DNA of 64,000 bases from Bacteroidales bacterium (GTDB lineage: Bacteria > Bacteroidota > Bacteroidia > Bacteroidales > P3): the NCBI GenBank assembly GCA_017448185.1, contig JAFSLX010000070.1, forward strand, positions 1 to 64,000. The letters are read 5' to 3'. The notes beneath the pieces are model-generated. The model did not search any database. It had not been told where the DNA came from and saw only the letters and a program-made list of their open reading frames with translations. This document shows, piece by piece, positions 7,353 to 53,204 of this stretch; position 1 is the first letter of the stretch, and every line of letters starts with the position of its first letter. The translations under genes were made by a program, and so were the position numbers.

Positions 7353-9230
7353 CTATCTCGCAAAGGTGATTAATAACACCGAAATATCGGCTGGCGAGAC
7401 CCCACTGATACGCGAAGCTTGTCCAATGGAGACAGGTCGATAACGCGACAACTTCTCCCGGGCTTCATATGAAAGTGCTGACAAAGTGAAGTAATCATAA
7501 TCCAAAGGCAAGGCGATGTCCTCGAACTTAAGGATGCGGTTCGCCACCTCCTGCTCTTTCTCGATATACCGCTGATACTTGATTGACGTCTCAGCTTCCT
7601 GCTGCACCTCTTGACTAAGACCATCGGGCAGAGCATTGATGGCTTCATTCACCGAAGGCGATAGCTGCCTCAACATCTCAAGCGACAACTCGGGCCGCAG
7701 CAACAACGAACTCAACCGAACTCGCTGACTGAGCGCAGCAGAATCATGCTCTTCAAGCCATTCGTTAGCCTCCGACGGAAGAATCGGAGACTCCTCAATC
7801 CGACACACAATCTCGGCCGTCAAACGCTGCTTCTCCTCCACCCTTTGCACGCGAGAGTCATCGGCCAACCCGATAGCATGCGACAAAGGCGTGAGACGCT
7901 GGTCAGCATTGTCCTGCCGCAAAAGAATTCGATACTCAGCACGGGAAGTGAACATACGGTACGGTTCGTCCACGCCTTTGGTCACAAGGTCGTCAATAAG
8001 CACACCGATATACGCCTGCGAACGCCCAAGGACGAACGGACTGCGTCCCTGCAGCTTCAACGCGGCATTTATACCAGCCATCAACCCCTGACAGGCAGCC
8101 TCTTCGTATCCGGTAGTACCATTTATCTGACCAGCGAAATAGAGATTCTCGACACGTTTTGTCTCAAGCGTATATACCAACTGCGTAGGTGGAAAATAGT
8201 CGTACTCAATAGCATAGCCTGGCTTGAAAATACGCGCCTGTTCGAAACCCTCAATAGAATGAAGAGCCTCCAGCTGCACCTCAAGCGGAAGCGACGAAGA
8301 AAAGCCGTTAAGATAATACGATTGTGAACGCCAGCCTTCAGGCTCGACAAAAAGCTGATGATGATCCTTGTCGGCAAAGCGATCAATTTTATCCTCGATC
8401 GACGGACAATAGCGCGGCCCTCGGCCCTGGATACGACCCGTGAACATCGGCGAACGCGAAAAACCGGTGCGAAGAATGTCGTGGGTACGCAAGTTAGTAT
8501 TGGCCAAATAACAAGGTTTCTGCTCGGTAAGCGGTATCGTATCGGAAAAAGAAAACTTGGACGGATGCTCATCGCCATACTGCACAGTCAACTTTGAGAA
8601 ATTAATTGTGCGGCCATCAATACGGACAGGGGTACCTGTTTTCAGGCGTGCCACCTCGAACCCAAACTCGCGCAACTGGTCGGAAAGCCCCACCGCTGGA
8701 GCCTCCCCTACCCTGCCACCTTGCCACGATTCAGTACCAATAAATATAGTCCCATTGAGAAATGTGCCATTGGTTAGCACCACGGCGCTGCATGGTATCG
8801 TGTGCCCCATACGGGTAACGACACCCGTCACTGCACCGCCATCGATAACAAGCGCTACCACCTCGTCCTGCCAGAGCGAAAGGTTCGGAATATTCTCCAA
8901 CACCTGTCGCCAATTAAGAGAGAAAAGCATACGGTCGCATTGTGCCCGCGGACTCCACATGGCAGGACCTTTCGAGAGGTTAAGCATACGGAACTGGATG
9001 GCAGAACGGTCGGTCACAATACCCGACCAACCACCGAGCGCGTCGATTTCGCGCACTATTTGCCCCTTGGCAACGCCACCCATAGCAGGATTGCACGACA
9101 TCTGGCAAATAGTATCGAGCATCTGGGTAATCAAAAGCACCTTGGAGCCAAGCTTGGCTGCTGCTGCCGCCGCTTCGGCTCCTGCATGTCCGGCCCCTAC
9201 AACCACTATATCATATTGCGGAAAAGTCAT
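7353..9230 (-). CDS. mnmG: tRNA uridine-34 modification enzyme MnmG
   Basis: A 625-residue FAD protein that with MnmE installs the carboxymethylaminomethyl group at the wobble uridine of tRNAs. FAD-binding GAGHAG lies at residues 12-17, and the family signature around Cys46 (CNPAMGG) and the [17 protein letters not shown] segment are present. Length is normal for the family. ybeY lies 12 bases upstream on the same strand, so the two are probably cotranscribed. Confidence 0.98.
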
Positions 9231-9242
9231 AGAACAAGGTAT

Positions 9243-9686
9243 TTATGCATTCTGTTCCACGCGAAACATAGCATCCCACAACGACAGAGCCTCCTCCTCT
9301 TGTCGACGCATCTCCGCCGCCTCAGCATCGGACTTATCGCCCTGCCCAAGCAGATGAAGTACTCCATGAATTACCACACGATGCAATTCGCGTTCGAACT
9401 CGACACCAAACAATCGAGCATTCTCCCCTACCCTATCGACACTAATAAAAATATCGCCCGAGATGAGGTTGGCCACAACATAGTCAAAAGTAATAATATC
9501 CGTATAAGTGTCATGGTCGAGGTAGTGTCGGTTCACCTCAAGCATATACTCGTCGTCACAAAACAGGTATGAAATGTTTCCAACGCTCTTTTCATGACAT
9601 TTGACCAGTTCGGCAATCCATTTTTTAACATTTGACGCTTCTGGAAGCTCAAAGTTCTCAATTTGTGAAGAAAAGCGAATGGCCAT
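9243..9686 (-). CDS. ybeY: Endoribonuclease / rRNA maturation factor YbeY
   Basis: A 147-residue UPF0054 metalloprotein for rRNA processing and ribosome quality control. The first two zinc-ligand histidines are in HGVLHLLG, but the usual third His (GYDH) is replaced by GQGDK. I believe a Lys/Asp version of this loop is usual in Bacteroidetes, so the gene is probably functional. It lies upstream of mnmG with a 12-base gap. Confidence 0.92.
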   Translation of the reverse strand: MAIRFSSQIENFELPEASNVKKWIAELVKCHEKSVGNISYLFCDDEYMLEVNRHYLDHDTYTDIITFDYVVANLISGDIFISVDRVGENARLFGVEFERELHRVVIHGVLHLLGQGDKSDAEAAEMRRQEEEALSLWDAMFRVEQNA

Positions 9687-9818
9687 TTTATAAACTATTT
9701 ATCTGATTTACAAATTATTAAAACAAAAACAACACTCTTTTTCATCATTTTCAATGAGAAATTCCATGCAAAACAGGGCAGTCGTACTCCGGAAACGATA
9801 GAAATTGAGGAATGGGCA

Positions 9819-10271
9819 TCATGCGGCGACAAGTGTACGGAACGACTGCAAAACAGAAATGCGCTCCAAAGCATCGGCGGGGTCAATGCCGTTTACTACA
9901 AATTCCATCCTCACCTCACGACCCTCATCCGAGAACACCATCCGGTCGGCAAGCGAACGCATGACAAAAATGCCCTCCCCTGCTCCGTCGGTTTCCGGCA
10001 GTTCACCATAACGAGCATAATCGAAACCCTTGCCCTCGTCCTTCACCGTGACAAAAACACCTCCACGGCAAGTGCCGAACATCAACGTCACCAGTTTTTC
10101 TTCAGCCGAAGCATTACCATGCACAATGGCATTCTCGACCGCTTGCAGTGTCGCCACTGAAAGCGTTGAGTAATAATTGCCCACATTGCTTTCATGGCAA
10201 AAATGGAACAACCGTTCCTCAACTTGTGGTAAATTGGCAATATTCGACTGTATAACAAAGGTTTCTGTCAT
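9819..10271 (-). CDS. RsbW-like HATPase (anti-sigma regulatory type)
   Basis: A 150-residue single-domain GHKL ATPase resembling serine kinase/anti-sigma factors such as RsbW and SpoIIAB. The N-box ATLQAVENAIVHGN and the ATP-lid motifs VKDEGKGFD and GAGEGIFVMRSLAD are clear. No partner (anti-anti-sigma STAS protein or sigma-B type factor) lies next to it, so its target is unknown. The start at 10271 (MTETFVIQS) is chosen over an upstream in-frame ATG. It sits between the DUF4175 gene and ybeY, all minus. Confidence 0.85.
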   Translation of the reverse strand: MTETFVIQSNIANLPQVEERLFHFCHESNVGNYYSTLSVATLQAVENAIVHGNASAEEKLVTLMFGTCRGGVFVTVKDEGKGFDYARYGELPETDGAGEGIFVMRSLADRMVFSDEGREVRMEFVVNGIDPADALERISVLQSFRTLVAA

Positions 10272-10363
10272 CGCACCGTAAAAATTAATCCGATGCAAAT
10301 ATACGAAAATATTTACTAACGGCTACGAAAAATGCAAAAAATGCTGAAACGGAACGCTCTCAA

Positions 10364-13300
10364 TTAACGATAAAAATAGTCGTTCACCTTGTCGCGGTAG
10401 TAGGGCGAAAGGGTAGGGGACACCGTGCGCAACTGGTCAGAAACGGGCTTCAACTGACGGTTGTATTTTTCCAACTCGGCAGGCGAAGGCTGGCTGTAGA
10501 GGTCGCCTGCCTCGCGGCTCTCACGACGCTCCTCCTTCTCACGTTCCATCTCAGCTTTCTCGTGCTGTAACAGACGGGTCATAATCTGCTGCTGGCGCTG
10601 AATGGTCTGCTGCGTGATAGTACGGTTCACCAGGTCGGTCTCCGTCTGCTCCATCTGCTTCATCATTTGGTCTATCTCCTTGGCCAACTTGCTGTTGCCA
10701 GCATTTTGCTGCTTCATCTCTTGTCCATATTCCTGCATCATGCGGCGTATCATCTCCTGCTGGGCTGCCATCTTGGCAAACTCTTCACTCATCGACTGTT
10801 GCTTGCCAATCTGGTGCCTACCATTCTGCTCTTTGCCTTGCTTGTCGAGTTGCTTCTTCAGGGCCTCCATCTGCTTGTTCAACTCCTCCTGCATCTGGCG
10901 CATCGACTTGGGCGACGGCTTCTTGCCCGGATTGTTGCACTGTTGCTGGTTTTTCCCCTTGTTTTTGCACTGTCCGCTCTTCATCTTCTGATTGTTCTGG
11001 CGCATCTGGTTCTGCATCTGGTCGAGGCTTTCGGCCAGCACCAAAGCAAGGTTGTTCAGCGAAGTCATGGCATACTGCATCGAGCGTGCCGAAGTAGTGT
11101 TACGTTGGGTTCCGTAGAAGGTCTGATTCATCTCGAGCAACCCGCTCAGCGACTTGCCCACATTCGTGTTCACCAGCCCCACTTCGCGACTGATGGCCGA
11201 GGCCACGGTCAGCTGCCGCTTGGCCATCGAACGAAGCGAATCCTCAACATTGCGGAAGTCGTCGCGCACACGGTTCTGTCTAGCTATAATGGTCTGATAT
11301 TTCGGGTCTTGAATATAGATGGCGTTCAGGTCGCCGATAAGCTCTTCCTGATTGAACGACAGGCGCACCAGATTTTTCAACAACCTTCGCACCTCTTCGG
11401 CATCCTCGGCCAAGTCCTCTTGCTCGGCCGCCACCTGGGCCTCGGCCAGAGCATCGCTCAACTGTTCCATCTCGTCGGCTGCTTGTTTCTGCTGCTTGCC
11501 CGCATCTTTGTTCTTGCCTTTCTGCAGGCTCTGCTGGGCCTCTTTCTGGCGCTGTTCCACCTTCTGCTCAAGCTCGGTGGGCACCTTGAAATCGGTCGAC
11601 GGATCGAGGTCCTTATAGTCTTTCTTTATCTGGTCGATATCCTCCTTCAGCTGCTGGAATCGGTCGTTCATCTGCTGCTGTTTTTCCTGCAGCTGCTCCT
11701 TCTGGTCCTTGCCTTTGGCGCGTTCGGTCTCCTCGGCCAGTTTGCGCTGCTCTTCGGCCAAACGGTCCATCTTCTGAATCGTCTGCTCCACCTTCTTTTC
11801 CACCTCCAGACGCTTCATCAATTCAATATTCTGGTCCAGCTGTTTCTCGAGCTCCGTATTGTCCATCTTCAACTGCTCCAACTCTTGCTGCACCTTCTTC
11901 TTGTCCATCTCCTGCATCATACGTTCTATCTCGGCCATCGTCTCCTTCATCTTCTCGTCCATCACCTCGTTCATCAGGCGGTCCAGTTCCCGCTGCTTCT
12001 CTATAAGCTGTTCACTCTGTTCGCGATATTTCTGCTCCAGACGGTTGTTCTCCTGAATCTGCTGCTGCATCTGCTTCATCATTTCGCGCACCTGCTTCTG
12101 TTTCTCGGCAATCTGTTGCAACTCCTTTTTATCCTGCCAGTTGAGCTCCTTCTTGTCCACCAGCCGACGCATCATATCGTTGATTTCCTGCTGCAGCTTC
12201 TGCAACTCGCCCATCTGCACCTCGGCACTCTGGCGCACATCGCTGCTGCTCTGTTCCAGCATGCGGTCGAGCTCTTCCTCCGACGGAATCTTTATCTCAA
12301 ACTGCTGCGAACGGGCTGTCTTGGGGCCATGGATGGCATCGTTGTCGCTCACCTCGAACCAATAGGTCAGCTCGTCGCCCGGGGACAGAATCAGCTCGGC
12401 CGTGTTGAACGAGAAGAAGAACTCCTGCGACGCCTGCCCGTTAAGGGCAATTTCGGCCTCGCTGACGGCGTTTCGGGTCGTGTCCGAGGTATTGACCGTC
12501 CGATGCACAAAAACAAGCCGTGTGAAGCCGTAATCATCTTTTATACGACCATGAAACAGCCGACGGTCGGGATGCAGCGAATCAATCACCTCGTCGACCA
12601 CTATCAGCGGCACCGCATCGGCTATCGCTGTGAGGGCATACTTCAGCGTGTCGGACCAATGAGGAATGCCTGACAGGGCATAAGCAACCTTGCTGACACA
12701 GAAGGCATAGTCGGTATTTTGCATCACCCGGCGGCTCACCTCCACGCGCCCGTTGCCGTCCACCGCATTTTCCACTTTCCATTTTCCGCCTTCCACTTCA
12801 AAATGCAGCGAGTCGGCATCCTGCGTCTGGAACAGCCAGCGCACCGTCGTGCCCTCGGGCACTGCCGCGTCGCCCAGGTTCACCAGCGTCTCGCTTTCGC
12901 GGCCCGTATAGGCAGGGTAGGAGAGGACCATGCGGAACGACAACACCGTCGGATTCGGCAACACCTCAATCCTGTACTCGGCCGACGTCACACCGCCACC
13001 CTCCATCACGAACGTCTGCGACCGCTGCAACTTGCTGAACTGGTAGGCAAACTCTCCATTTCCGGTCTGCTGCATGCGGTAGCGCTTGCCGTCAAGCACG
13101 ATGTTCACCTCGGCCGGCACCGCATCGCCCTCGGCCACAGCCTCGAGCCGATAGTCGCTGCCTTGCTGCGCCGTGAGGTCATCGTTCAGCACACGGAAAT
13201 GGAACGGTGCCGGACGCTCGTAGACCGTCTGGTAGTTCACAATGCGTTTCGACGGCTCGGTGACCGTCTGCGGAGCCAAAATCAGCAACAAAACCAGTGC

Positions 13301-13795
13301 CACCAACGGCGGCAGGGCATACTTCAGATAACGGCGGTTACCCTTCAGGTTGATAGCGCTCAGGAAAGGCACCGGCCGCAACTGAGCCGTCTTCTGCTCG
13401 ATAGCAGCCAGCAGCAAATCCGAATTCTCGGTTCCCAACTCCGAACCATCCATCAACTGCAGCAGGTTCAGCAGCTTGTCGTCCACCTCGGGGAAATGCT
13501 GTCCTATGATGCGGGCGGCCTCCTCGTGGCCGATGCGGCGGCCCACGCCGTACATCTTCAGCAGCGGCCTTACCACGAGCCATGCCGTCACCGCCGCCAC
13601 CGCCGCCAGGCCAATCCAGAAAATAAGCCCGCGGCCTAACGGCGAAAGCCAGCCGAAATGCTCCAGCAGCACCGCCGCAAGATAAAGCCCCACCACGATG
13701 CCCACGGCATACAGCACACCGCGTATCAGGAGGTTCTTGTAATACTTCCTGACAAAGGCATCAAGCGCCGACAATATGTCCTGGTTTGGTTTCAT
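10364..13795 (-). CDS. DUF4175-family giant coiled-coil membrane protein
   Basis: A 1143-residue protein of a Bacteroidetes family annotated DUF4175. Two or three hydrophobic segments occur in the first ~170 residues (GVLYAVGIVVGLYLAAVLL; GLIFWIGLAAVAAVTAWLVV; YALPPLVALVLLLILAP), then a ~350-residue region likely to be beta-rich, then a very long Gln/Glu/Lys-rich coiled coil (about residues 500-1130). It probably sits in the inner membrane with the coil as a scaffold; the function is unknown. The start at 13795 (MKPNQDILSALDAF) is preferred to an ATG eight codons upstream. An open frame of over 660 codons on the opposite strand is a shadow of the coiled-coil codons. Confidence 0.85.
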   Translation of the reverse strand: MKPNQDILSALDAFVRKYYKNLLIRGVLYAVGIVVGLYLAAVLLEHFGWLSPLGRGLIFWIGLAAVAAVTAWLVVRPLLKMYGVGRRIGHEEAARIIGQHFPEVDDKLLNLLQLMDGSELGTENSDLLLAAIEQKTAQLRPVPFLSAINLKGNRRYLKYALPPLVALVLLLILAPQTVTEPSKRIVNYQTVYERPAPFHFRVLNDDLTAQQGSDYRLEAVAEGDAVPAEVNIVLDGKRYRMQQTGNGEFAYQFSKLQRSQTFVMEGGGVTSAEYRIEVLPNPTVLSFRMVLSYPAYTGRESETLVNLGDAAVPEGTTVRWLFQTQDADSLHFEVEGGKWKVENAVDGNGRVEVSRRVMQNTDYAFCVSKVAYALSGIPHWSDTLKYALTAIADAVPLIVVDEVIDSLHPDRRLFHGRIKDDYGFTRLVFVHRTVNTSDTTRNAVSEAEIALNGQASQEFFFSFNTAELILSPGDELTYWFEVSDNDAIHGPKTARSQQFEIKIPSEEELDRMLEQSSSDVRQSAEVQMGELQKLQQEINDMMRRLVDKKELNWQDKKELQQIAEKQKQVREMMKQMQQQIQENNRLEQKYREQSEQLIEKQRELDRLMNEVMDEKMKETMAEIERMMQEMDKKKVQQELEQLKMDNTELEKQLDQNIELMKRLEVEKKVEQTIQKMDRLAEEQRKLAEETERAKGKDQKEQLQEKQQQMNDRFQQLKEDIDQIKKDYKDLDPSTDFKVPTELEQKVEQRQKEAQQSLQKGKNKDAGKQQKQAADEMEQLSDALAEAQVAAEQEDLAEDAEEVRRLLKNLVRLSFNQEELIGDLNAIYIQDPKYQTIIARQNRVRDDFRNVEDSLRSMAKRQLTVASAISREVGLVNTNVGKSLSGLLEMNQTFYGTQRNTTSARSMQYAMTSLNNLALVLAESLDQMQNQMRQNNQKMKSGQCKNKGKNQQQCNNPGKKPSPKSMRQMQEELNKQMEALKKQLDKQGKEQNGRHQIGKQQSMSEEFAKMAAQQEMIRRMMQEYGQEMKQQNAGNSKLAKEIDQMMKQMEQTETDLVNRTITQQTIQRQQQIMTRLLQHEKAEMEREKEERRESREAGDLYSQPSPAELEKYNRQLKPVSDQLRTVSPTLSPYYRDKVNDYFYR

Positions 13796-13932
13796 GCAAT
13801 TAAAGATAACGCACGCCAATACTTTTTATTGTATATCCACCATGTCCTAACTTTAATATGCAAATTCAACATTGTGAAAAACAATACAATATCATTTTTT
13901 ATATCAAATACGGCTGTGGGCAGCCTGTCATA

Positions 13933-14016
13933 CCGATGCTCGGCCGTTGTCCAGTCGTTGTTCAGTGTTTGACTGAACAACGACTGAACAACGACTGGAC
14001 AACGGCCGAGCATCGG
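13933..14016. repeat. Hairpin repeat copy 2 (11-bp unit)
   Basis: Near-perfect palindrome with arms of about 33 bp, from CCGATGCTCGGCC on the left to its complement on the right, containing the CGTTGTTCAGT unit. It lies between the divergent DUF4175 and SDR genes, 22 bases before the SDR promoter, so it is not a terminator. Confidence 0.92.
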
Positions 14017-14090: not shown

Positions 14091-14894
14091 ATGGAGAACA
14101 AGACAATCATCATTACAGGTGCCTCGTCGGGCTTCGGCAAGGCTACAGCCGAGATGCTTTCGCAGCAGGGACACACCGTCTACGGCCTCTGCCGCCGGGC
14201 TATGCAGGACGGCGCAGTACGCTACCGCCAATGCGATGTGCGCAACCGCGAACAGATACGCGCCGTGGTGGCCGAAATCGTCAAGGAGCAGGGCAGGGTG
14301 GACGTGCTGGTGAACAACGCCGGTATGGGTATCGGCGGCGCGCTGGAGCTGGCCACCGAGGAGGAGATAGACCTGCAGATGGGCACCAACTTCATGGGCT
14401 GCGTCAACATGTGCCAGGCCGTGCTGCCTTATATGCGCAAGGAACGCAAGGGTAAGATTATCAACCTCAGTTCGATAGGCGGGGTGATGGGCCTGCCGTA
14501 CCAAGGCTTCTACTCGGCCTCGAAGTTCGCCATCGAGGGCTTCACCGAGGCGTTGGCTGCCGAGGTGCGGGGCTTTGGCATCAGGGTGTGCATGGTAGAG
14601 CCGGGCGACTTCGCCACAGGCTTCACCGGCAGCCGCAAGAACAGCCAAGCCACCATGGACGACCCCGACTATGGCCCCATCTTCCGTCGCTCGTTGGCCA
14701 TCATCGAGAAGGAGGAAAACGGTGGCCTGAAGCCCGAAGTGCTGGCCCGCCGCATAGTGAAACTGGTCGAGCAAAAGCGCCCCCCGCTGCGCAACGTGGT
14801 GGCCAACCTCGAGCAGTGGCTCTCGGTGGTCATCAAGCGCGTGCTGACCGGCAACCAGATGGTCGGCATATTGCGCGACTACTACAAAAGCTAA
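14091..14894 (+). CDS. Short-chain dehydrogenase/reductase
   Basis: A 267-residue classical SDR. The cofactor motif TGASSGFG occupies residues 9-16, NNAG follows, then the catalytic Ser-Tyr-Lys set in INLSSIGG and YSASK. Specificity cannot be read, but the length and sequence fit the large group acting on alcohols, ketones or lipids. Its end overlaps the end of a convergent gene by four bases. Confidence 0.88.
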   Translation: MENKTIIITGASSGFGKATAEMLSQQGHTVYGLCRRAMQDGAVRYRQCDVRNREQIRAVVAEIVKEQGRVDVLVNNAGMGIGGALELATEEEIDLQMGTNFMGCVNMCQAVLPYMRKERKGKIINLSSIGGVMGLPYQGFYSASKFAIEGFTEALAAEVRGFGIRVCMVEPGDFATGFTGSRKNSQATMDDPDYGPIFRRSLAIIEKEENGGLKPEVLARRIVKLVEQKRPPLRNVVANLEQWLSVVIKRVLTGNQMVGILRDYYKS

Positions 14895-15562
14895 TCTTTT
14901 TTGCTTACAGTATCGGCCGGTGCAGGAATAAAGACATCGAGGATACGGCCATAAAGGAGCAACTCGTTTTTCATGTCGCTATTCTTCCAGCTGACCTCAA
15001 GACCCGGACAGACGAGGAAGAGGGAGGCAAGGATTGCGCTTGCTTTACCTCCCGAGAAATCTTCACTGGCATCGCCGGCAAGCTCTATTTGACCACTGAA
15101 ATTCCAAAGTCTATGGTCGTTGGGGCTTGTTATCAGCAGTCCCAGACCGTAAAGCAGATTTTTCCTGGCGCTGACGGAAACAGGGCGCAGCTGAACCAGA
15201 CCGCCAACTGAAATGGCCGGCAGCGTGGAAAAGCCACCTGTCGGTGGCTGGATGACGCTGCGCACCATGGTGTTGCGCGAAAGCCGCAAACCCTTGACAC
15301 ACATCAAGGTGTCGCCAAACTGGGTGACAAGGAATGTGTAGTCGCCCGCCACGACAGGCGGCAGGGAGTAGTTGCCGCCGTAGTCGCTGATGCCTGAAGC
15401 CCAGCAAATGCCGTCCTTGATTAAATGTACTTTGCACAGGGGCAGTACATTGTCGTCGACCCCATTGACTACGGTGCCTATCACCGTCAGGCTGTCGGCC
15501 TGCGCATAAGCGTGGACTGATGGCAGAAAAGACAGAAGCAGGATAAATGCGCGGTACTTCAT
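14891..15562 (-). CDS. Secreted protein with carboxypeptidase-regulatory-like domain
   Basis: A 223-residue protein with a signal peptide (MKYRAFILLLSFLPSVHAYA) and an N-terminal Ig-like fold of the carboxypeptidase-regulatory type: ADSLTVIGTVV, GISDYGGNYSLPPV, GDYTFLVTQFGD. The C-terminal half is unfamiliar. It lies 12 bases downstream of the membrane-anchored sigma factor and is almost certainly cotranscribed, so it may be its periplasmic partner; that is inference. Confidence 0.7.
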   Translation of the reverse strand: MKYRAFILLLSFLPSVHAYAQADSLTVIGTVVNGVDDNVLPLCKVHLIKDGICWASGISDYGGNYSLPPVVAGDYTFLVTQFGDTLMCVKGLRLSRNTMVRSVIQPPTGGFSTLPAISVGGLVQLRPVSVSARKNLLYGLGLLITSPNDHRLWNFSGQIELAGDASEDFSGGKASAILASLFLVCPGLEVSWKNSDMKNELLLYGRILDVFIPAPADTVSKKD

Positions 15563-15574
15563 GGTATGTAAGTA

Positions 15575-16558
15575 TTACAAATTCAGCACAAAGTGGAGAG
15601 TGTCGCCAATCTGGAGGGTGTAGCAATGTTCTGTGAGAATAGAACCGGAACTGGGAAGGAGATTGAAGGTGCTGATGCCGAAACACTCTTGCGTGGCCAC
15701 TAACAGACCGGACGAATGGCGAAGCGTCACACGTTCGCCATGCAGACCACTGATAGTGAGCCGTCGACCGTTGACAACGATAGTGATGGGTGGCTTGATC
15801 TGGAGTGGGGGAGGGGTCTCGTCGAGAGTGGGGAAGAGTAGCGTGCTTTCCAAATGTTCCATAGTAGGCAAGAGCACTTGCATAACCGCTTGCGGTTCAG
15901 GCTCTATCCCATTTGTAGAAACACTGACTGTGTCGACAGGCACAGGGTGCGGTTCGACGGATTCCACCACGGTGTCCACCTCGGTGTCCACCTCGGCAGT
16001 ACGGAGCAAGAACGAGGGTCGCCACTGCGGCACCACAGCGACGGCCAGCGACGAGGTGGCCAGCAAAGCCAGCAGTACCAATACCGCACGACGCAGTTTT
16101 AAGACAGCACGATGCATTCGTTGGTAGACCGCATCGCGACTAAGACCCATTTTTTCGGCAATCTCGTCCCCTTCATATCCCTCCATCTGCAGGCGAATCA
16201 TCTGTTGTTCGTCGGGGCTGAGATATGCCATTAAATGGTCTAATTCCTCCTTCTCACAGCCCGAATCGGTGGCAGATAGGAATTCTGCCATCTCGGGAGT
16301 CAAAGGCAGCTCTGTAAGGTGCTTTTTGCGGTGCAGGTGGTCGAGGGTGGTGCGAGTCATCCATCGTACCCATGCCCGTTCTTCGCGAGGTGTGGAATTG
16401 GGACGCAAGCTATCAAAACCAAGCCACAACACAATCGCAACCTCCTGTATCAGATCGCGACTGCGTTCGTAGTTGCCCTTTGCCCTGACCCAACACATGT
16501 GCCATATCAACGGACGGTACCGGTTGAGCAATTCAGTAAAAGCTTTGTTACGTTCCAT
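15575..16558 (-). CDS. Membrane-anchored ECF sigma factor with T9SS-sorting-domain-like tail
   Basis: A 327-residue protein. Residues 8-80 form sigma region 2 (RSRDLIQEVAIVLW) and 105-157 region 4 (YLSPDEQQMIRLQMEGYEGDE and a helix-turn-helix ending VYQRMHRAVLKLRR). A transmembrane helix (158-176) follows with no linker, then an acidic/Pro-rich spacer, then residues 258-327 (VNGRRLTISGLHGERVTL..., SSGLLVATQ..., FNLLPSSG..., YTLQIGD) that resemble a T9SS type-A C-terminal sorting domain such as that of the BspA-like protein in this window. The sigma domains would face the cytoplasm and the tail the periplasm. Normal ECF factors are about 160-200 residues with a separate membrane anti-sigma. 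The pairing with a secreted partner gene suggests a surface-sensing switch; mechanism unknown. Confidence 0.75.
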   Translation of the reverse strand: MERNKAFTELLNRYRPLIWHMCWVRAKGNYERSRDLIQEVAIVLWLGFDSLRPNSTPREERAWVRWMTRTTLDHLHRKKHLTELPLTPEMAEFLSATDSGCEKEELDHLMAYLSPDEQQMIRLQMEGYEGDEIAEKMGLSRDAVYQRMHRAVLKLRRAVLVLLALLATSSLAVAVVPQWRPSFLLRTAEVDTEVDTVVESVEPHPVPVDTVSVSTNGIEPEPQAVMQVLLPTMEHLESTLLFPTLDETPPPLQIKPPITIVVNGRRLTISGLHGERVTLRHSSGLLVATQECFGISTFNLLPSSGSILTEHCYTLQIGDTLHFVLNL

Positions 16559-16608
16559 TCGACAATATAATACCCACTTTTTTCCCTAAATCTGACATCG
16601 CCCTATAA

Positions 16609-20209: not shown

Positions 20210-20774
20210 TTTGTCTATATGTTTATAACTTTTCCTTTTGCAAAAATACGATAAAAACGGAACACTCTTGTTTTGAATAATTAAAACTTTTCAACACCAG
20301 AGCCTATTCTTTCTATAAATCACATGTTTTCAATACATAGTAAAAAAATAAACAAAACATTGTTGAACATGATGTCAACTTCTGTCAGTTCTCTTGTTCA
20401 AAAATTCCCTTGGTTGAAAAACATCATTTTTTCAAAACCAGTTTCAACAAAATAAACCTTTCCTAACTGCTCCAAATAGTATTAACAATTAACTGTCGAA
20501 ACACACTTTCAACAATGAGTTGAAAAAAACAGAAATAAATAATTTTCAACTTAATAAACTTGTAAAACATGTTGAAAACAAAATCAAAAATATAACATCA
20601 AAAAACACTTATTCAACTTATCAACAAATTAACAAGCATCAAAAAAAATAAAAATAAAAGAATAAGAAAAATTTATTTTTTTATTATCACCACCTGCATG
20701 GCTACTACATCGATACTACTCTGACCATTTTTAGCATTTATTAGATTGCCACGTCACATTAATATCGTCACACG

Positions 20775-20865
20775 GTCTGTTATTGTTTGGCAGCTGTTCT
20801 GCAGTTGTTTAGTTAATGACTGAACAACGACAGAACAAATGCTGAACAACAACAGAACAACGGAC
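20775..20865. repeat. Hairpin repeat copy 3 (diverged)
   Basis: A degenerate copy of the same family: AACTGCAGAACAG-like units on the left and TGAACAACG, AGAACAA and TGAACAACAACAGAAC on the right. The pairing is imperfect compared with the other copies. It ends about 50 bases before the nadA -7 element. Confidence 0.75.
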
Positions 20866-20916
20866 ATGGAGGTTGCGGCAGGACAAACTTTTATGATACG
20901 ATATTGTTTTTTTTCG

Positions 20917-20924
20917 TATCTTTG
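20917..20924 (+). promoter_or_regulatory. -7 element of the nadA promoter
   Basis: TATCTTTG matches TAnnTTTG and lies 28 bases before the nadA start codon. No clear TTTG is seen at the usual upstream distance, only T-rich sequence. Confidence 0.6.
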
Positions 20925-20951
20925 CACTTTCAAAACAACACAATAGAGGCT

Positions 20952-21899
20952 ATGACCAACGAGCAATTGAAACAGGAAATCCTGCGACTGAAAAAAGAAA
21001 AGAATGCCGTGATATTAGGTCACTACTACCAACGGCATGAGATACAGGAACTCTCAGACTATGTGGGAGACAGCCTTGCCTTGGCACAGAAAGCACAAGA
21101 GGCCACGGCCGATATCATTGTCTTCTGCGGTGTGCACTTTATGGCCGAGACGGCCAAAATCCTCAATCCTCAATGTAAGGTGTTGCTGCCCGACATGGAG
21201 GCTTCCTGCTCGTTGGCCGAAAGTTGCAAAGCCGAGGATTTTTCCAAGTTCAAGGCCGAGCATCCCGACCACATGGTCATCTCCTATGTCAATTGTTCGG
21301 CAGAAATCAAAGCCCTGAGCGATCTTATCTGCACCAGTGGCAATGCCGAGAAGCTGGTGCGCTCGTTGCCTGAAGACCAAAAGATTATCTTTGCTCCAGA
21401 TCGCAACCTCGGCGGCTACATCAATCAGGTTACCGGTCGTCAGATGCTGCTCTGGAACGGTGTATGCACCGTGCACGACGCTATGCAGGCCGAGGCTGTG
21501 CTGCAGCTGAAAGCCGAGCACCCCGACGCTCCCGTCATAGCACACCCCGAGTGCAACCCCGCACTCCTCAAAGTGGCCGACTTTATTGGTTCCACCAAGG
21601 CTATGCTCAACTATATCAAGTCAAGCCAGGCACAGAAATTCATCGTTGCTACCGAGACAGGCATCCTCTACGAAATGAAGCGAGAGAATCCTGAAAAGGA
21701 GTTCATCACCCTGCGCGACAACAAAAGCTGCGCCTGTGACGATTGCGCCTACATGAAGCTCAACACCCTTGAGAAGCTTTATAGCTGCCTGCGCGACGAG
21801 CAGCCCGAAATACTGATGAGTCCCGAGATGATCGAGGCCGCCAAGCGCCCCATTGTCCGCATGCTCGACATGAGCCGTCAGCTGGGCGTCATCAAATAG
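20952..21899 (+). CDS. nadA: Quinolinate synthase NadA
   Basis: A 315-residue [4Fe-4S] enzyme making quinolinate from iminoaspartate and dihydroxyacetone phosphate in NAD synthesis. GHYYQRHEIQ, VFCGVHFMAETAKIL, HPECN and the C-terminal NKSCACDDCAYM with the cluster cysteines are present. The ATG at 20952 is chosen because the promoter -7 element lies inside the longer open frame. nadB and nadC are not in the window; nadK is at 35.5 kb. Confidence 0.97.
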   Translation: MTNEQLKQEILRLKKEKNAVILGHYYQRHEIQELSDYVGDSLALAQKAQEATADIIVFCGVHFMAETAKILNPQCKVLLPDMEASCSLAESCKAEDFSKFKAEHPDHMVISYVNCSAEIKALSDLICTSGNAEKLVRSLPEDQKIIFAPDRNLGGYINQVTGRQMLLWNGVCTVHDAMQAEAVLQLKAEHPDAPVIAHPECNPALLKVADFIGSTKAMLNYIKSSQAQKFIVATETGILYEMKRENPEKEFITLRDNKSCACDDCAYMKLNTLEKLYSCLRDEQPEILMSPEMIEAAKRPIVRMLDMSRQLGVIK

Positions 21900-45068: not shown

Positions 45069-45143
45069 CCCGTTGTTCAGCAGTTGTTCAGTCGTTGTTC
45101 AGTGTTTGACTGAACAACGACTGAACAACGACTGAACAACGGG
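45069..45143. repeat. Hairpin repeat copy 5 (11-bp unit)
   Basis: Left arm CCCGTTGTTCAG plus two further units and right arm with three ACTGAACAACG units ending in GGG, around GTTTG. Arms are about 35 bp with few mismatches. Placed between divergent genes and 83 bases before the next promoter. Confidence 0.93.
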
Positions 45144-45225
45144 TGACCAATGGCAGGAGGGGTTGCCGAGGGCACCGCGACAGCCCGTTTCCGGAGGGCG
45201 GAAAAAAGCGGATTGCAAATTTTTT

Positions 45226-45257
45226 TTTGTCAGATTGAGAAATTATCTTTATTTTTG
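45226..45257 (+). promoter_or_regulatory. Promoter of the ZapB-like/zapA operon
   Basis: TTTG at 45226-45229 and TATTTTTG at 45250-45257, spacer 20 bases, 36 bases before the start codon at 45293. Confidence 0.75.
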
Positions 45258-45292
45258 CACCGCTTTTAATAGTGTAAAAGGCATAGAAAGAC

Positions 45293-45586
45293 ATGTTCGA
45301 TTTTGAGACATCGGTAACAGGTATAGAGTTTAAAGTGAGGCAGTTGGCTGACGAGGTGACACGCCTGCGGAGCTTGGTGTCGCAACAGGAGGACGAGTGC
45401 CGTGAGCTAAAAGAAGCGTTGAAAAACAAAGATATATTAATAAATAGTTTAAACGAAGAGAACAAAATAATCAAATTAGGGAACAGGTTGTCGGAAAAAA
45501 ACGACAGTGCTGAGATAAAACTCAAGATTAATCAGATGATTCGTGCCATTGACAGGAGTCTGGAGACGTTGAAAACAAATAGTTGA
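45293..45586 (+). CDS. Small coiled-coil protein before zapA (ZapB-like)
   Basis: A 97-residue protein consisting almost wholly of coiled coil (EFKVRQLADEVTRLRSLVSQ and later heptads). It is transcribed just before zapA, with stop and start within ten bases. Position and length suggest a cell-division coiled coil similar to ZapB, but sequence cannot prove homology. Confidence 0.7.
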   Translation: MFDFETSVTGIEFKVRQLADEVTRLRSLVSQQEDECRELKEALKNKDILINSLNEENKIIKLGNRLSEKNDSAEIKLKINQMIRAIDRSLETLKTNS

Positions 45587-50573: not shown

Positions 50574-50618
50574 ATGTGTTTATTGAACGGAAATATTAAC
50601 ATTTTAACAATAAACATC

Positions 50619-53204
50619 ATGAAGAAAAAACTATTCCTTTTATTTGCCGCCTTAATGGCGATGGGGCAGAATGCTTTTGCCTATGATTTCTCGGCAATAG
50701 CGCCGTCGGGTCAGACATTGTATTATACAATTATTGATCCGGTCAACCATTATGTAAAGGTCACTTATCCAAATGATGCACTAATTGGAGATGAACCATG
50801 GTTTGACCCAAGGTCTGCAATCGATTCATGGGGTACTAACCCATTGCCCATGGGAGCATTGGTGTTACCTGACACTGTGTTGTTTAATGAAACAAATTAT
50901 ATACTACGAGCTGTGGGCTCTTATGCTTTTTCTGGTTGTCCAATTACTTCTGTTGTAATGCCCAATACTGTAGACAGTATAGGAGGTTGTGCTTTTCAGA
51001 ATTGCACATATTTATTAAGCGTTACTTTCTCAAACTCGCTACGATTTATTGGACCTTACGCACTAAGCGGATGTTGTTTGGGTGATGTTGTGCTACCACC
51101 CTCTGTTCAACGGATAGAATATGGTGCATTACGTTCATCCAACATCACTAATATTACCTTGAATGACTCCATTCAACACCTTGGGGAAGGATGTTTGGGC
51201 GGTAACCCATTTACGTCATTATTTATTCCTGCATCTGTAAACGATATAAGTGGCATATATGGTACTGCTGGCATATGTTCAGGTGGTTCTCTAACATCCA
51301 TTGTCGTTGATCCAAATAATCCGTATTATGATAGTCGCGACAACTGCAATGCTATTATTAACAATATGGGAGTAGTAATTCAGGGTTGTAATAACACCAT
51401 CCTCCCTGAAGGTGTTTTGAAAATAGGATCCAGTGCCTTTGCAGGATGTGATTTTAATACATTTGTTGTGCCAAGTTCTGTTATTGAGTTTGGAGATGGT
51501 TTATGTCACTGTAATAAATTGATAATTAATTCGACAACGATATTGGGTGCAGGTCCTTTTGGAGACCCTTACGGACCATTTTGGGATACTGTTCAATTAA
51601 CCAGCGAGGTTCCTCCGACTATGATTAATTCCTATTCACCCGATCCTTGTATTTTAAACACGATTATTATTGTGCCCTGTAATTCATTAGCCGCCTATCA
51701 AGCGTCAAGTTTTTGGAGTCAGTTCACAAACTTGAGTGCACTTGGTACTCCGCAAATTACGGTGAATGCCGAACACGGCATTGCTACCGTAGATACCTAT
51801 CCCACTTGCGGCAACAACACGGCCACCGTCAGCGCCACTGCCACCGAGGAGCATTACCACTTTGTCCGCTGGAGCAATGGCAGCACGCAGAACCCCTACA
51901 CGCTGGTGCTGAACGGCAATACAACGCTCACCGCCATCTTTGCCATCGACAGCTTCACAGTCACTGCCACAGCCGCCAACGCCATGGGTTCTGTATTGGG
52001 TGGCAACACGGTCCCCTATGGTACTACGGCCACCATTACAGCCATTCCATCAGGAAATAATATCTTCCTCAGCTGGAGCAATGGTGTGACTGACAACCCC
52101 TATACTCTCACCGTCACCTCCGACACTGTGCTACAGGCTTTGTTCACCTTACAAGACACCGTTGTGCTGTATGATACTTTGTATGTCGATGTGCACGACA
52201 CCACCTATATCGACGTTCATGACACCACCTACGTGCCGGTCCACGATACCACTTATATTAATGTGTATGTCCACGATACAACCTATGTCCCTGTTCACGA
52301 TACCACTTATGTGGATGTTCATGATACCACCTATGTTCCGGTCCACGATACCACTTATACCAATGTATATGTCCACGATACCACTTATGTAGATGTCTTT
52401 GTGCCAGTTCACGATACCACCTATATCAGCGTACATGATACAACGGTGATACTCGACACCTTGACGCTGACCGAATACGTGCATGACACAACTGTGGTGC
52501 TCGATACCTTGACAATGACCGAGTATGTTCACGATACAACGGTGATAGTTGATACACTGACGCTATACGATACAATGGTTGTAAATAATTATATTTATGA
52601 TACCACAACGGTGTACGACACGGTGACCCTGACGGAATACGTCCACGACACCACCATCATCGCCGCCGACACGCTGTACCTGACCGAGTATGTGCACGAC
52701 ACGACGGTGGTGGACAACTACATCTACGACACCATCGTTAATACGGAGTATGTCTATCAGACCGACACCGTCGTTGTGGACAACTACATCTATGACACAA
52801 CGGTGTTAATCCAGACCGACACCGTTGTGGTCGACAACTATATCACCGACACGTTGACCGTGACGGATACGATTGTGGTGGACAACTACCTGACCGACAC
52901 GCTCTACCTGTGGGATACGCTCTATCTGACCGATACCGTCTATATCCATGATACCGTCTATATCCACGACAGCGTGGGTGTGGACGACGTGGCGACGGTA
53001 AGCTACACAGTCTATGCCACGGGGTCGCAGATTGTAGTGGAGGGTGATTTCGACGGCCAGGTGGCGCTGTACGACGTGAACGGACGCGTGCTGGCCGTGA
53101 AGAGGAACGACCTGGGCACGATAAGGTTCGACGTGGCGTCCTCGGGTGCCTACCTGATCAAGGTGGGTAACCATCCGGCAAGGAAGATTGTGGTGGTGAG
53201 ATAG
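50619..53204 (+). CDS. BspA-like leucine-rich-repeat surface protein, T9SS type A
   Basis: An 861-residue secreted protein. Signal peptide MKKKLFLLFAALMAMGQNAFA; BspA-type LRR repeats to about residue 370 (GSYAFSGCPITSVVMPNTV, IGGCAFQNCTYLLSVTFSNS); two InlB_B-like segments (HYHFVRWSNGSTQNPYTL; ITAIPSGNNIFLSWSNG); then ~270 residues of xHDTTYV repeats; and a T9SS type-A sorting domain at the end (IVVEGDFDGQVALYDVNGRV, SGAYLIKVGNHPARKIVVVR). It should be exported across the outer membrane and attached to the surface, perhaps for adhesion. The start at 50619 is preferred to an ATG at 50574. Confidence 0.88.
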   Translation: MKKKLFLLFAALMAMGQNAFAYDFSAIAPSGQTLYYTIIDPVNHYVKVTYPNDALIGDEPWFDPRSAIDSWGTNPLPMGALVLPDTVLFNETNYILRAVGSYAFSGCPITSVVMPNTVDSIGGCAFQNCTYLLSVTFSNSLRFIGPYALSGCCLGDVVLPPSVQRIEYGALRSSNITNITLNDSIQHLGEGCLGGNPFTSLFIPASVNDISGIYGTAGICSGGSLTSIVVDPNNPYYDSRDNCNAIINNMGVVIQGCNNTILPEGVLKIGSSAFAGCDFNTFVVPSSVIEFGDGLCHCNKLIINSTTILGAGPFGDPYGPFWDTVQLTSEVPPTMINSYSPDPCILNTIIIVPCNSLAAYQASSFWSQFTNLSALGTPQITVNAEHGIATVDTYPTCGNNTATVSATATEEHYHFVRWSNGSTQNPYTLVLNGNTTLTAIFAIDSFTVTATAANAMGSVLGGNTVPYGTTATITAIPSGNNIFLSWSNGVTDNPYTLTVTSDTVLQALFTLQDTVVLYDTLYVDVHDTTYIDVHDTTYVPVHDTTYINVYVHDTTYVPVHDTTYVDVHDTTYVPVHDTTYTNVYVHDTTYVDVFVPVHDTTYISVHDTTVILDTLTLTEYVHDTTVVLDTLTMTEYVHDTTVIVDTLTLYDTMVVNNYIYDTTTVYDTVTLTEYVHDTTIIAADTLYLTEYVHDTTVVDNYIYDTIVNTEYVYQTDTVVVDNYIYDTTVLIQTDTVVVDNYITDTLTVTDTIVVDNYLTDTLYLWDTLYLTDTVYIHDTVYIHDSVGVDDVATVSYTVYATGSQIVVEGDFDGQVALYDVNGRVLAVKRNDLGTIRFDVASSGAYLIKVGNHPARKIVVVR

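Follow-up and report, generated by a model that had tools for sequence, protein, structure and literature searches.

A gene on the minus strand of a 64,000-nucleotide stretch of a Bacteroidales bacterium genome (contig JAFSLX010000070.1, assembly GCA_017448185.1; hereafter the window) encodes P0001, a protein that combines an extracytoplasmic function (ECF) sigma factor, a predicted membrane helix and a tail that, on profile comparison, is homologous to the sorting domains of the type IX secretion system (T9SS). Our interpretation, held with slightly less than even confidence, is that P0001 is a sensor held at the membrane, where it imitates a surface product of the kind that is exported; proteolysis would free it, allowing transcription of its own operon and, in relatives, of the genes of surface proteins. 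The parts of this interpretation that are based on sequence are the architecture, its conservation, the homology of the tail, the loss of a GxY motif from short tails, long relatives that carry a whole adhesin precursor, one relative (L051) with a lipoprotein-like domain, and a common promoter-like element. The gene is laid out as follows.

15575–16558, minus strand: gene for the membrane-tethered ECF sigma factor P0001, 327 amino acids.
16322–16531, minus strand: sigma region 2, residues 10–79 (PF04542, 24.5 bits against a cut-off of 24; helices in the AlphaFold2 (AF2) model).
16094–16249, minus strand: sigma region 4, residues 104–155 (PF08281, 44.3 bits).
16031–16087, minus strand: predicted membrane helix, residues 158–176 (hydrophobicity, AF2).
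16022–16045, minus strand: juxtamembrane motif AVAVVPQW, residues 172–179 (pattern xxx[VIL][VIL]PxW), a candidate cleavage zone.
15794–16021, minus strand: acidic, proline-rich linker, predicted to be disordered, residues about 180–255 (AF2, sequence).
15578–15787, minus strand: beta domain related to T9SS sorting domains, residues 258–327 (hhalign, AF2, Foldseek/VIA).

Regions 2 and 4 are the only sigma regions listed for P0001; both lie inside residues 1–158, regions 1.1 and 3 are not among the matches, as is usual for an ECF sigma factor, and TIGR02937 matches with 68.5 bits. The peak hydrophobic 19-mer is residues 158–176 (mean Kyte–Doolittle 2.66; the best with a start outside 141–179 reaches 1.03), and a positively charged run, RDAVYQRMHRAVLKLRR, precedes it. 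The AF2 model, built from 60 sequences, has good confidence in the sigma part and shows residues 141–175 as a single helix, in which the end of region 4 continues into the membrane helix. Its predicted local distance difference test (pLDDT) score is below 50 over residues 186–249, 79–86 in most blocks of the tail and 56 in one. A fold search with the full-length model finds that the sigma part resembles solved sigma structures; sigma matches dominate this search and it is uninformative on the tail, which was therefore modelled separately. A first-pass annotation, made from the sequence letters, had described this open reading frame (ORF) with its strand and length, complete ECF regions 2 and 4 and one membrane helix at 158–176; the ORF check and the domain matches bear out the first two points, and the hydrophobicity scan and AF2 back the helix as a prediction. 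An assembly artefact as the origin of the fusion is ruled out by a full-length homologue, P0004, that is 71% identical.

The same annotation likened the last 70 residues to the type-A sorting domain of a BspA-like protein elsewhere in the window, and this resemblance holds at the level of the family. Profile–profile comparison by hhalign matches the tail family to the C-terminal domains (CTDs) of nine other proteins of the same genome, seven of which carry the leucine-rich repeat (LRR) domain LRR_5, with a probability of 98.1% (E 7e-14), and to 20 of the genome's 75 TIGR04183 matches with 95.4% (E 1.8e-8). The 20 control comparisons with column-shuffled profiles give at most 1.0%, which excludes chance similarity. 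Modelled alone, from the window tail and 37 of the 53 tails found, residues 250–327 reach a pLDDT of 86, and the top three PDB matches of this model in Foldseek are T9SS CTDs; the E-values are weak. A PDB sequence search with the tail profile returns RgpB CTD entries (5hfs, E 0.026; 7pq4, E 0.044) at levels too weak to count alone; its top rows, repetitive WD40 designs, were discarded, their single stretches not being significant. Taken by itself, P0001 matches no sorting-domain model in Pfam to E 1, where DUF6383 (PF19910, cut-off 23.7 bits) is not listed either, nor among the best 25 of 59 NCBIfam matches to E 10, and a genome-wide TIGR04183 search has no match at 15578–15787, which limits direct assignment of the tail. 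P0001 is connected to CTDs by way of the family and of its paralogues of about 800 amino acids.

The short tails differ from sorting domains at the motifs associated with export. According to a review, the CTD motifs conserved best are PxGxYVV and KxxxK, within the last 22 residues, and this stretch is sufficient for secretion (PMC5445135). Both are absent from the last 22 or so residues of P0001, whose C-terminus is SILTEHCYTLQIGDTLHFVLNL. Among the complete members of the family, none of the 33 short forms has GxY near the C-terminus, while 2 of the 12 mid forms (with L051 counted as mid) and all 10 long forms do. In alignment A3 the conserved terminal column holds lysine in all nine long or secreted tails but in just 5 of the 29 short ones; a looser KxxxK/R test is non-discriminating (6 of 29 short, 5 of 9 long). 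We infer that short tails kept the fold and lost the export signal. Since the short tails are without the GxY of the published motif, a sensor reading is preferred over a cargo reading, in line with the first-pass proposal that the tail may be a sensor and is not itself exported. Separately, a CxxxC motif (often CxGxC) is found in 32 of 56 sigma tails, for example those of L060, L065, L069 and L093, versus 3 of 17 other CTD proteins, and might be a disulfide or a ligand site; the window tail retains only its first cysteine.

The fusion is conserved. P0001 has 216 homologues at E up to 1e-3, and the 120 matches listed (one being its own cluster) have 41–71% identity over 91–100% of the query, so that the search suggested earlier, for other ECF proteins with a membrane helix and a CTD-like tail, recovers near-full-length relatives. 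Matches at E 1e-20 occur in 25 of 61 genomes, all of the window's genus, and lone sigma factors account for many of the weaker matches. Among 393 genomes sampled across the order, two match at 1e-30, both from the same genus and the second with lone sigmas only. Named relatives are metagenome-assembled genomes of Bacteroidales or Bacteroidetes, several with ruminant sample names; their search used the motif at the helix edge as its pattern, and the loci are thus biased towards that motif. Of 60 family ORFs, 56 have the pattern xxx[VIL][VIL]PxW where the helix ends on its outer side, and an alignment of 60 proteins (A2) shows no variation at A174, V176, P177 and W179.

Members of the family take several forms. 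Form (a), which includes the window protein, has sigma, transmembrane (TM) helix and short tail in about 320 residues. Form (b) has 345–505 residues and in some cases a remnant of a BspA-type LRR domain (L043, LRR_5 21.1 bits, below cut-off). Form (c), of about 800 residues, consists of sigma, TM, spacer, signal-peptide-like segment, LRR_5 and CTD, and the three members scanned match LRR_5 at E 3e-49 to 3e-53; the window genome holds one, L038 (L038:10015-12417, 800 amino acids), which scores 27.7 bits against PF19910 in the genome search and 23.2 in the whole-protein scan. Form (d) is split (L052, L053, L056): a lone sigma is followed by an overlapping ORF with a cytoplasmic segment, one TM and an ectodomain, which ends in a CTD in L053 and L056 and not in L052. 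Form (e) is L051, where a lipoprotein-like domain replaces the CTD behind sigma and TM in 388 residues. L051 apart, almost every complete member, whether short, mid or long, has a beta domain of one family. In the sigma tree, whose groups label the truncated or frameshifted L079, L092 and L094 as short, short and long forms are interleaved (9 and 8 changes), and the window protein groups most closely with L054, which is a long form (91/77, a moderate level of support). At L092:6278-8715 a long fusion lies in two overlapping ORFs, with an apparent frameshift near the junction of spacer and adhesin.

The long forms show most directly what the ectodomain copies. In L093 it aligns with the adjacent secreted LRR protein, 288 bases downstream, at 64% over 561 columns, which run from the first to the last residue of the secreted protein and include its signal peptide. 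The other ten long-form ectodomains match the same protein at 46–62%, nine of them over 552–561 columns and the contig-truncated L090 over 493. These alignments are most simply explained if the complete gene of a secreted adhesin became attached behind a sigma-TM gene and was pared down in other members. All 11 long fusions (L038, L040, L054, L066, L073, L084, L088, L090, L091, L093, L095) keep an in-frame methionine and a signal-peptide-like stretch in mid-protein, at about residues 272–300 (D[ST]MN..., ending ...AQVA[HY]DF), which could provide an internal start for an adhesin secreted on its own, or form a second segment in the membrane.

L051 relates in the same way to a different class of product. 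Its last 190 or so residues match four lipoprotein-like ORFs located 1.4–3.6 kb downstream (phmmer E 2.5e-10 to 4.5e-7), with no other match to the ectodomain up to E 0.1 among all wide-locus ORFs. The ectodomain also matches a lipoprotein-like ORF behind a promoter element of the kind described below in another genome (L166; 28% over 103 residues; E 3e-9 by blastp within a set of nine), and Pfam gives Lipocalin_4, at sub-threshold scores only, for L051 and three of its four related ORFs. The locus (L051:8426-13696) lies, like the window gene, downstream of aminotransferase and acyltransferase genes; its tandem related lipoprotein-like genes alternate with another lipoprotein-like family (9604–10251, 12048–12689), and no second promoter element was found in 8426–13696. 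It is possible, and we hold it a little more loosely than the sensor interpretation, that the family as a whole is a product-mimic sigma system, in which a fused copy of the neighbouring surface-protein class would let the envelope state of the exported product set transcription directly, with no separate anti-sigma factor or kinase. The mimic would be a whole T9SS adhesin precursor in the long forms, the sorting domain alone in the short forms and the lipoprotein-like domain in L051.

Two further features adjoin the sigma gene, a promoter-like element before it and a secreted partner behind it.

16565–16597, minus strand: promoter-like pair TGTCAGATTT-N14-GTATTATAT, with 6 bases between its end and the sigma start codon.
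14891–15562, minus strand: secreted partner P0002, with an apparent signal peptide, a CarboxypepD_reg-like domain and a DxRLW motif.

The window element is the sole exact match in its genome to GTCAGATTN{13,17}GTATTAT, a pattern with 0 occurrences in 100 shuffles of the window. The first box, TGT[CA]AGATT, lies within 125 bases of the start in 50 of 63 family upstream regions, the window included; both boxes are present in 42 of the 63, and 40 of these have identical spacing, TGTCAGATTT-N14-G[GT]GTATTATAT. The exact pattern has 30 sites in 13 of 61 genomes, all of the window's genus, against 2 for a reversed-pattern control. Downstream of the 30 sites lie a sigma fusion (14 sites), an operon with the sigma behind P0002-type genes (2), secreted LRR proteins (6), a pair of CarboxypepD_reg and P0002-type genes (2), proteins that are lipoprotein-like by their N-terminus (4) and other genes (2: a TonB-dependent outer-membrane protein 181 bases off, and an unclear target). 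The presence of LRR genes at 6 of the 14 non-sigma sites is far above chance, given that the window genome has just 14 LRR_5 open frames in 2.2 Mb. Two of the promoter-linked LRR proteins have a sorting-type domain above cut-off (one Por_Secre_tail, one DUF6383; L064, L058); in L172 DUF6383 is just below cut-off, L171 runs off its contig, and L163 and L165 have only visible CTD-like ends. Of the 37 genomes belonging to the genus, 15 have a fused or split sigma, defined here by E up to 1.3e-44; 11 of these contain the exact motif, versus 2 of the 22 that have no such sigma (Fisher P 9e-5, a value inflated by the relatedness of the genomes, which are not independent). Relaxed matching gives five sites in the window genome: two before its two sigma fusions, two near contig ends and one apparently spurious. 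The pattern fits an autoregulating ECF sigma factor that in relatives is tied to secreted surface proteins.

The −10-like box (window 16558–16573, with many relatives alike) is only six bases from the sigma start, and the sigma mRNA is accordingly predicted to be nearly leaderless; unlike those of the sigma genes, the sites before LRR and lipoprotein-like genes are mostly about 30–70 bases from the start. Nine of 50 promoters (loci L057, L058, L064, L066, L073, L084) have a perfect inverted repeat of 7–9 bases around the TGTCAGATTT box, with compensated variants CACCTCCGA/TCGGAGGTG and CACATCCAA/TTGGATGTG; it is possibly an operator or a 5′ hairpin.

The first-pass annotation had also pointed to a secreted neighbour at a distance of 12 bases as a potential ligand. 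The gap between the sigma gene and P0002 is indeed 12 bases, for which reason the two are likely to be co-transcribed as one operon, and the partnership recurs: by a rough count, 32 of the 63 family ORFs have a member of the P0002 family no more than 4 kb away, one match (L071, a 900-codon ORF) probably being another protein. The DxRLW motif is conserved in the P0002 family, and the CarboxypepD_reg-like domain, at 18.5 bits below cut-off in P0002, is above it in the relatives L058 and L061. In the split loci L052 and L053 a P0002-type gene comes immediately before the sigma gene, and the promoter element stands before the P0002-type genes. In the same rough count, 25 of 63 family ORFs have CTD-protein neighbours, a figure that includes split partners (L053, L056) and broken sigma pieces (L077, L092) and misses LRR proteins of the classic Por_Secre_tail type. 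By eye, no TonB-dependent receptor with a signalling domain was recognised in the adjacent ORFs, no receptor scan of the window having been made, and P0002 itself has only its CarboxypepD_reg-like domain. P0002 may be a ligand, a co-sensor or a target.

These components can be arranged into a mechanism. The tethered sigma factor would be inactive, since in the model the last helix of region 4 passes straight into the membrane. The tail would stay in the periplasm, unexported, and report on the handling of T9SS cargo, perhaps via the CarboxypepD_reg partner. A signal would open the VVPxW juxtamembrane zone to a periplasmic protease, after which an M50 site-2 protease may cleave the helix and set the sigma factor free. 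Free sigma would then read TGTCAGATTT-N14-GTATTATAT, so that its own operon tracks export status, as the LRR protein and lipoprotein genes might in relatives. The window genome has SprA and, as noted, 75 TIGR04183 matches (at E 0.01); M50 proteases are present in it as in all control genomes and are not diagnostic of intramembrane proteolysis. L051 qualifies the T9SS-status sensor of the first-pass annotation: it carries a lipoprotein-like domain instead of a sorting domain, so T9SS may not be the only system whose status is sensed.

A rather doubtful alternative is that the tail is a generic ligand-binding domain whose T9SS ancestry is historical, that it senses the CarboxypepD_reg partner or a surface ligand, and that T9SS status is irrelevant to it. 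Against this, the interleaving of short and long forms, with the long form L054 nearest to P0001, would mean that the tail is still being exchanged with cargo-like ectodomains, and the promoter element also stands before secreted LRR genes, some with sorting domains.

Another explanation, which we consider improbable, is that the helix and its AxA end are a working signal peptide: signal peptidase would cleave after AVA, the tail would depart, and the sigma factor would be constitutively free or stuck in the membrane. The end of the helix, AxA|VV, does look like that of a signal peptide, with alanines conserved at −3 and −1 (A172 nearly invariant, A174 invariant in A2), but the VVPxW residues after the cut are conserved as strongly as AxA, and a cytoplasmic leader of about 157 residues is atypical. 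Signal peptidase does not require conserved residues after its cut site, and the usual signal peptides have no cytoplasmic leader of such length. Nor would it make sense, on this explanation, to keep a tail without export motifs. Equally improbable is an ordinary membrane-stress sigma factor for which TM and tail are a mere autoinhibitory tether, released by general quality-control proteolysis. In its favour, the gene immediately behind 12 of the 15 sister lone sigmas examined is a one-TM ORF with no CTD found in it, and M[STF][DEQ]G[LF]xxW precedes the helix in 7 of those 12, as in the three split partners. Against it, a beta domain of one family is retained by almost every complete member of whatever length, L051 excepted, and by two of the three split partners.

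The sensor interpretation can be compared with known systems. In architecture, IutY and ECF52 come closest. The former, found in Pseudomonas putida (ECF243), holds sigma and anti-sigma factor in one protein and is processed by Prc and RseP (PMC8999054); P0001 likewise has its ECF sigma fused C-terminally to a membrane regulator, with proteolytic release as the model, but IutY serves iron-siderophore surface signalling, whereas the ectodomain of P0001 is a relative of sorting domains. No FecR-type domain, which membership of ECF243 involves, is among the 18 Pfam matches of P0001 up to E 1. ECF48, ECF52 and ECF53 of Actinobacteria, for example SCO4117, have C-terminal TM extensions (PMC8999054), and SCO4117 resembles P0001 in having a folded domain outside the cytoplasm as well as a periplasmic stretch rich in proline. 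Unlike P0001, these groups have a zinc-finger region, a carbohydrate-binding domain and Gram-positive hosts. Gram-positive hosts are not known to have a T9SS. The first-pass view that precedents are confined to separate anti-sigma factors is therefore too strong, as IutY and ECF48/52/53 are fused membrane sigma factors.

The nearest functional precedent is the route from PorA to PorXY-SigP in Porphyromonas gingivalis, where T9SS genes are under an ECF sigma factor and a protein with a CTD acts upstream of that factor (PMC7712824). There the components are separate proteins, whereas in P0001 the CTD relative and the sigma factor form one polypeptide, and the promoter sites of the P0001 family precede surface-protein and sigma genes. 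The T9SS type A CTDs (TIGR04183/PF18962; RgpB CTD 7pq4, 5ag8; 5hfs) share profile homology and, apparently, a similar predicted fold with the sigma tails, but the short tails are without GxY, mostly lack the terminal lysine, and sit behind a predicted membrane anchor where T9SS cargo has a cleavable signal peptide. Among the papers listed by literature searches, none describes a sigma factor fused to a T9SS sorting domain in its title or the start of its abstract, most subscription papers being outside their coverage. Fused membrane sigma factors are already known; the sorting-domain ectodomain, the whole-adhesin fusions and a promoter in common with secreted LRR genes appear to be new.

The activation of PorY in P. 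gingivalis is described as still to be determined (PMC7712824), and the family described here bears on how Bacteroidota balance the synthesis of surface proteins with type IX export. A sigma factor with a relative of a sorting domain, and with a defined promoter-like element that secreted LRR genes have in common with it in relatives, would make the coupling of synthesis and export directly testable. It would also exemplify how a tag for secretion can be taken over for sensing, while close relatives still have split, whole-adhesin, partial-LRR, tail-only and lipoprotein-like forms.

The BspA-like protein used for the initial comparison of the tail is encoded elsewhere in the window.

50574–53204, plus strand: BspA-like LRR protein with a T9SS sorting domain (LRR_5, 103.8 bits; TIGR04183, 24.1 bits).

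Its TIGR04183 match lies at 53031–53171 (cut-off 23 bits), and a Pfam scan of the protein to E 0.1 lists no sorting domain; the analysis did not link this gene to the sigma gene. An 886-codon frame in the same genome (G000:C28:21362-23620) has identical LRR_5 and TIGR04183 scores and is either a duplicate gene or an assembly repeat. At the lone-sigma loci, which include G000:C41:865-1332 (L004) and the sisters L023–L032, the M[STF][DEQ]G[LF]xxW stretch is a candidate anti-sigma segment. Finally, similar translated stretches (VVQSLF..., LNND...) at about 13800–14000, 20754–20966 and 45088–45525 of the window suggest a dispersed short intergenic repeat.

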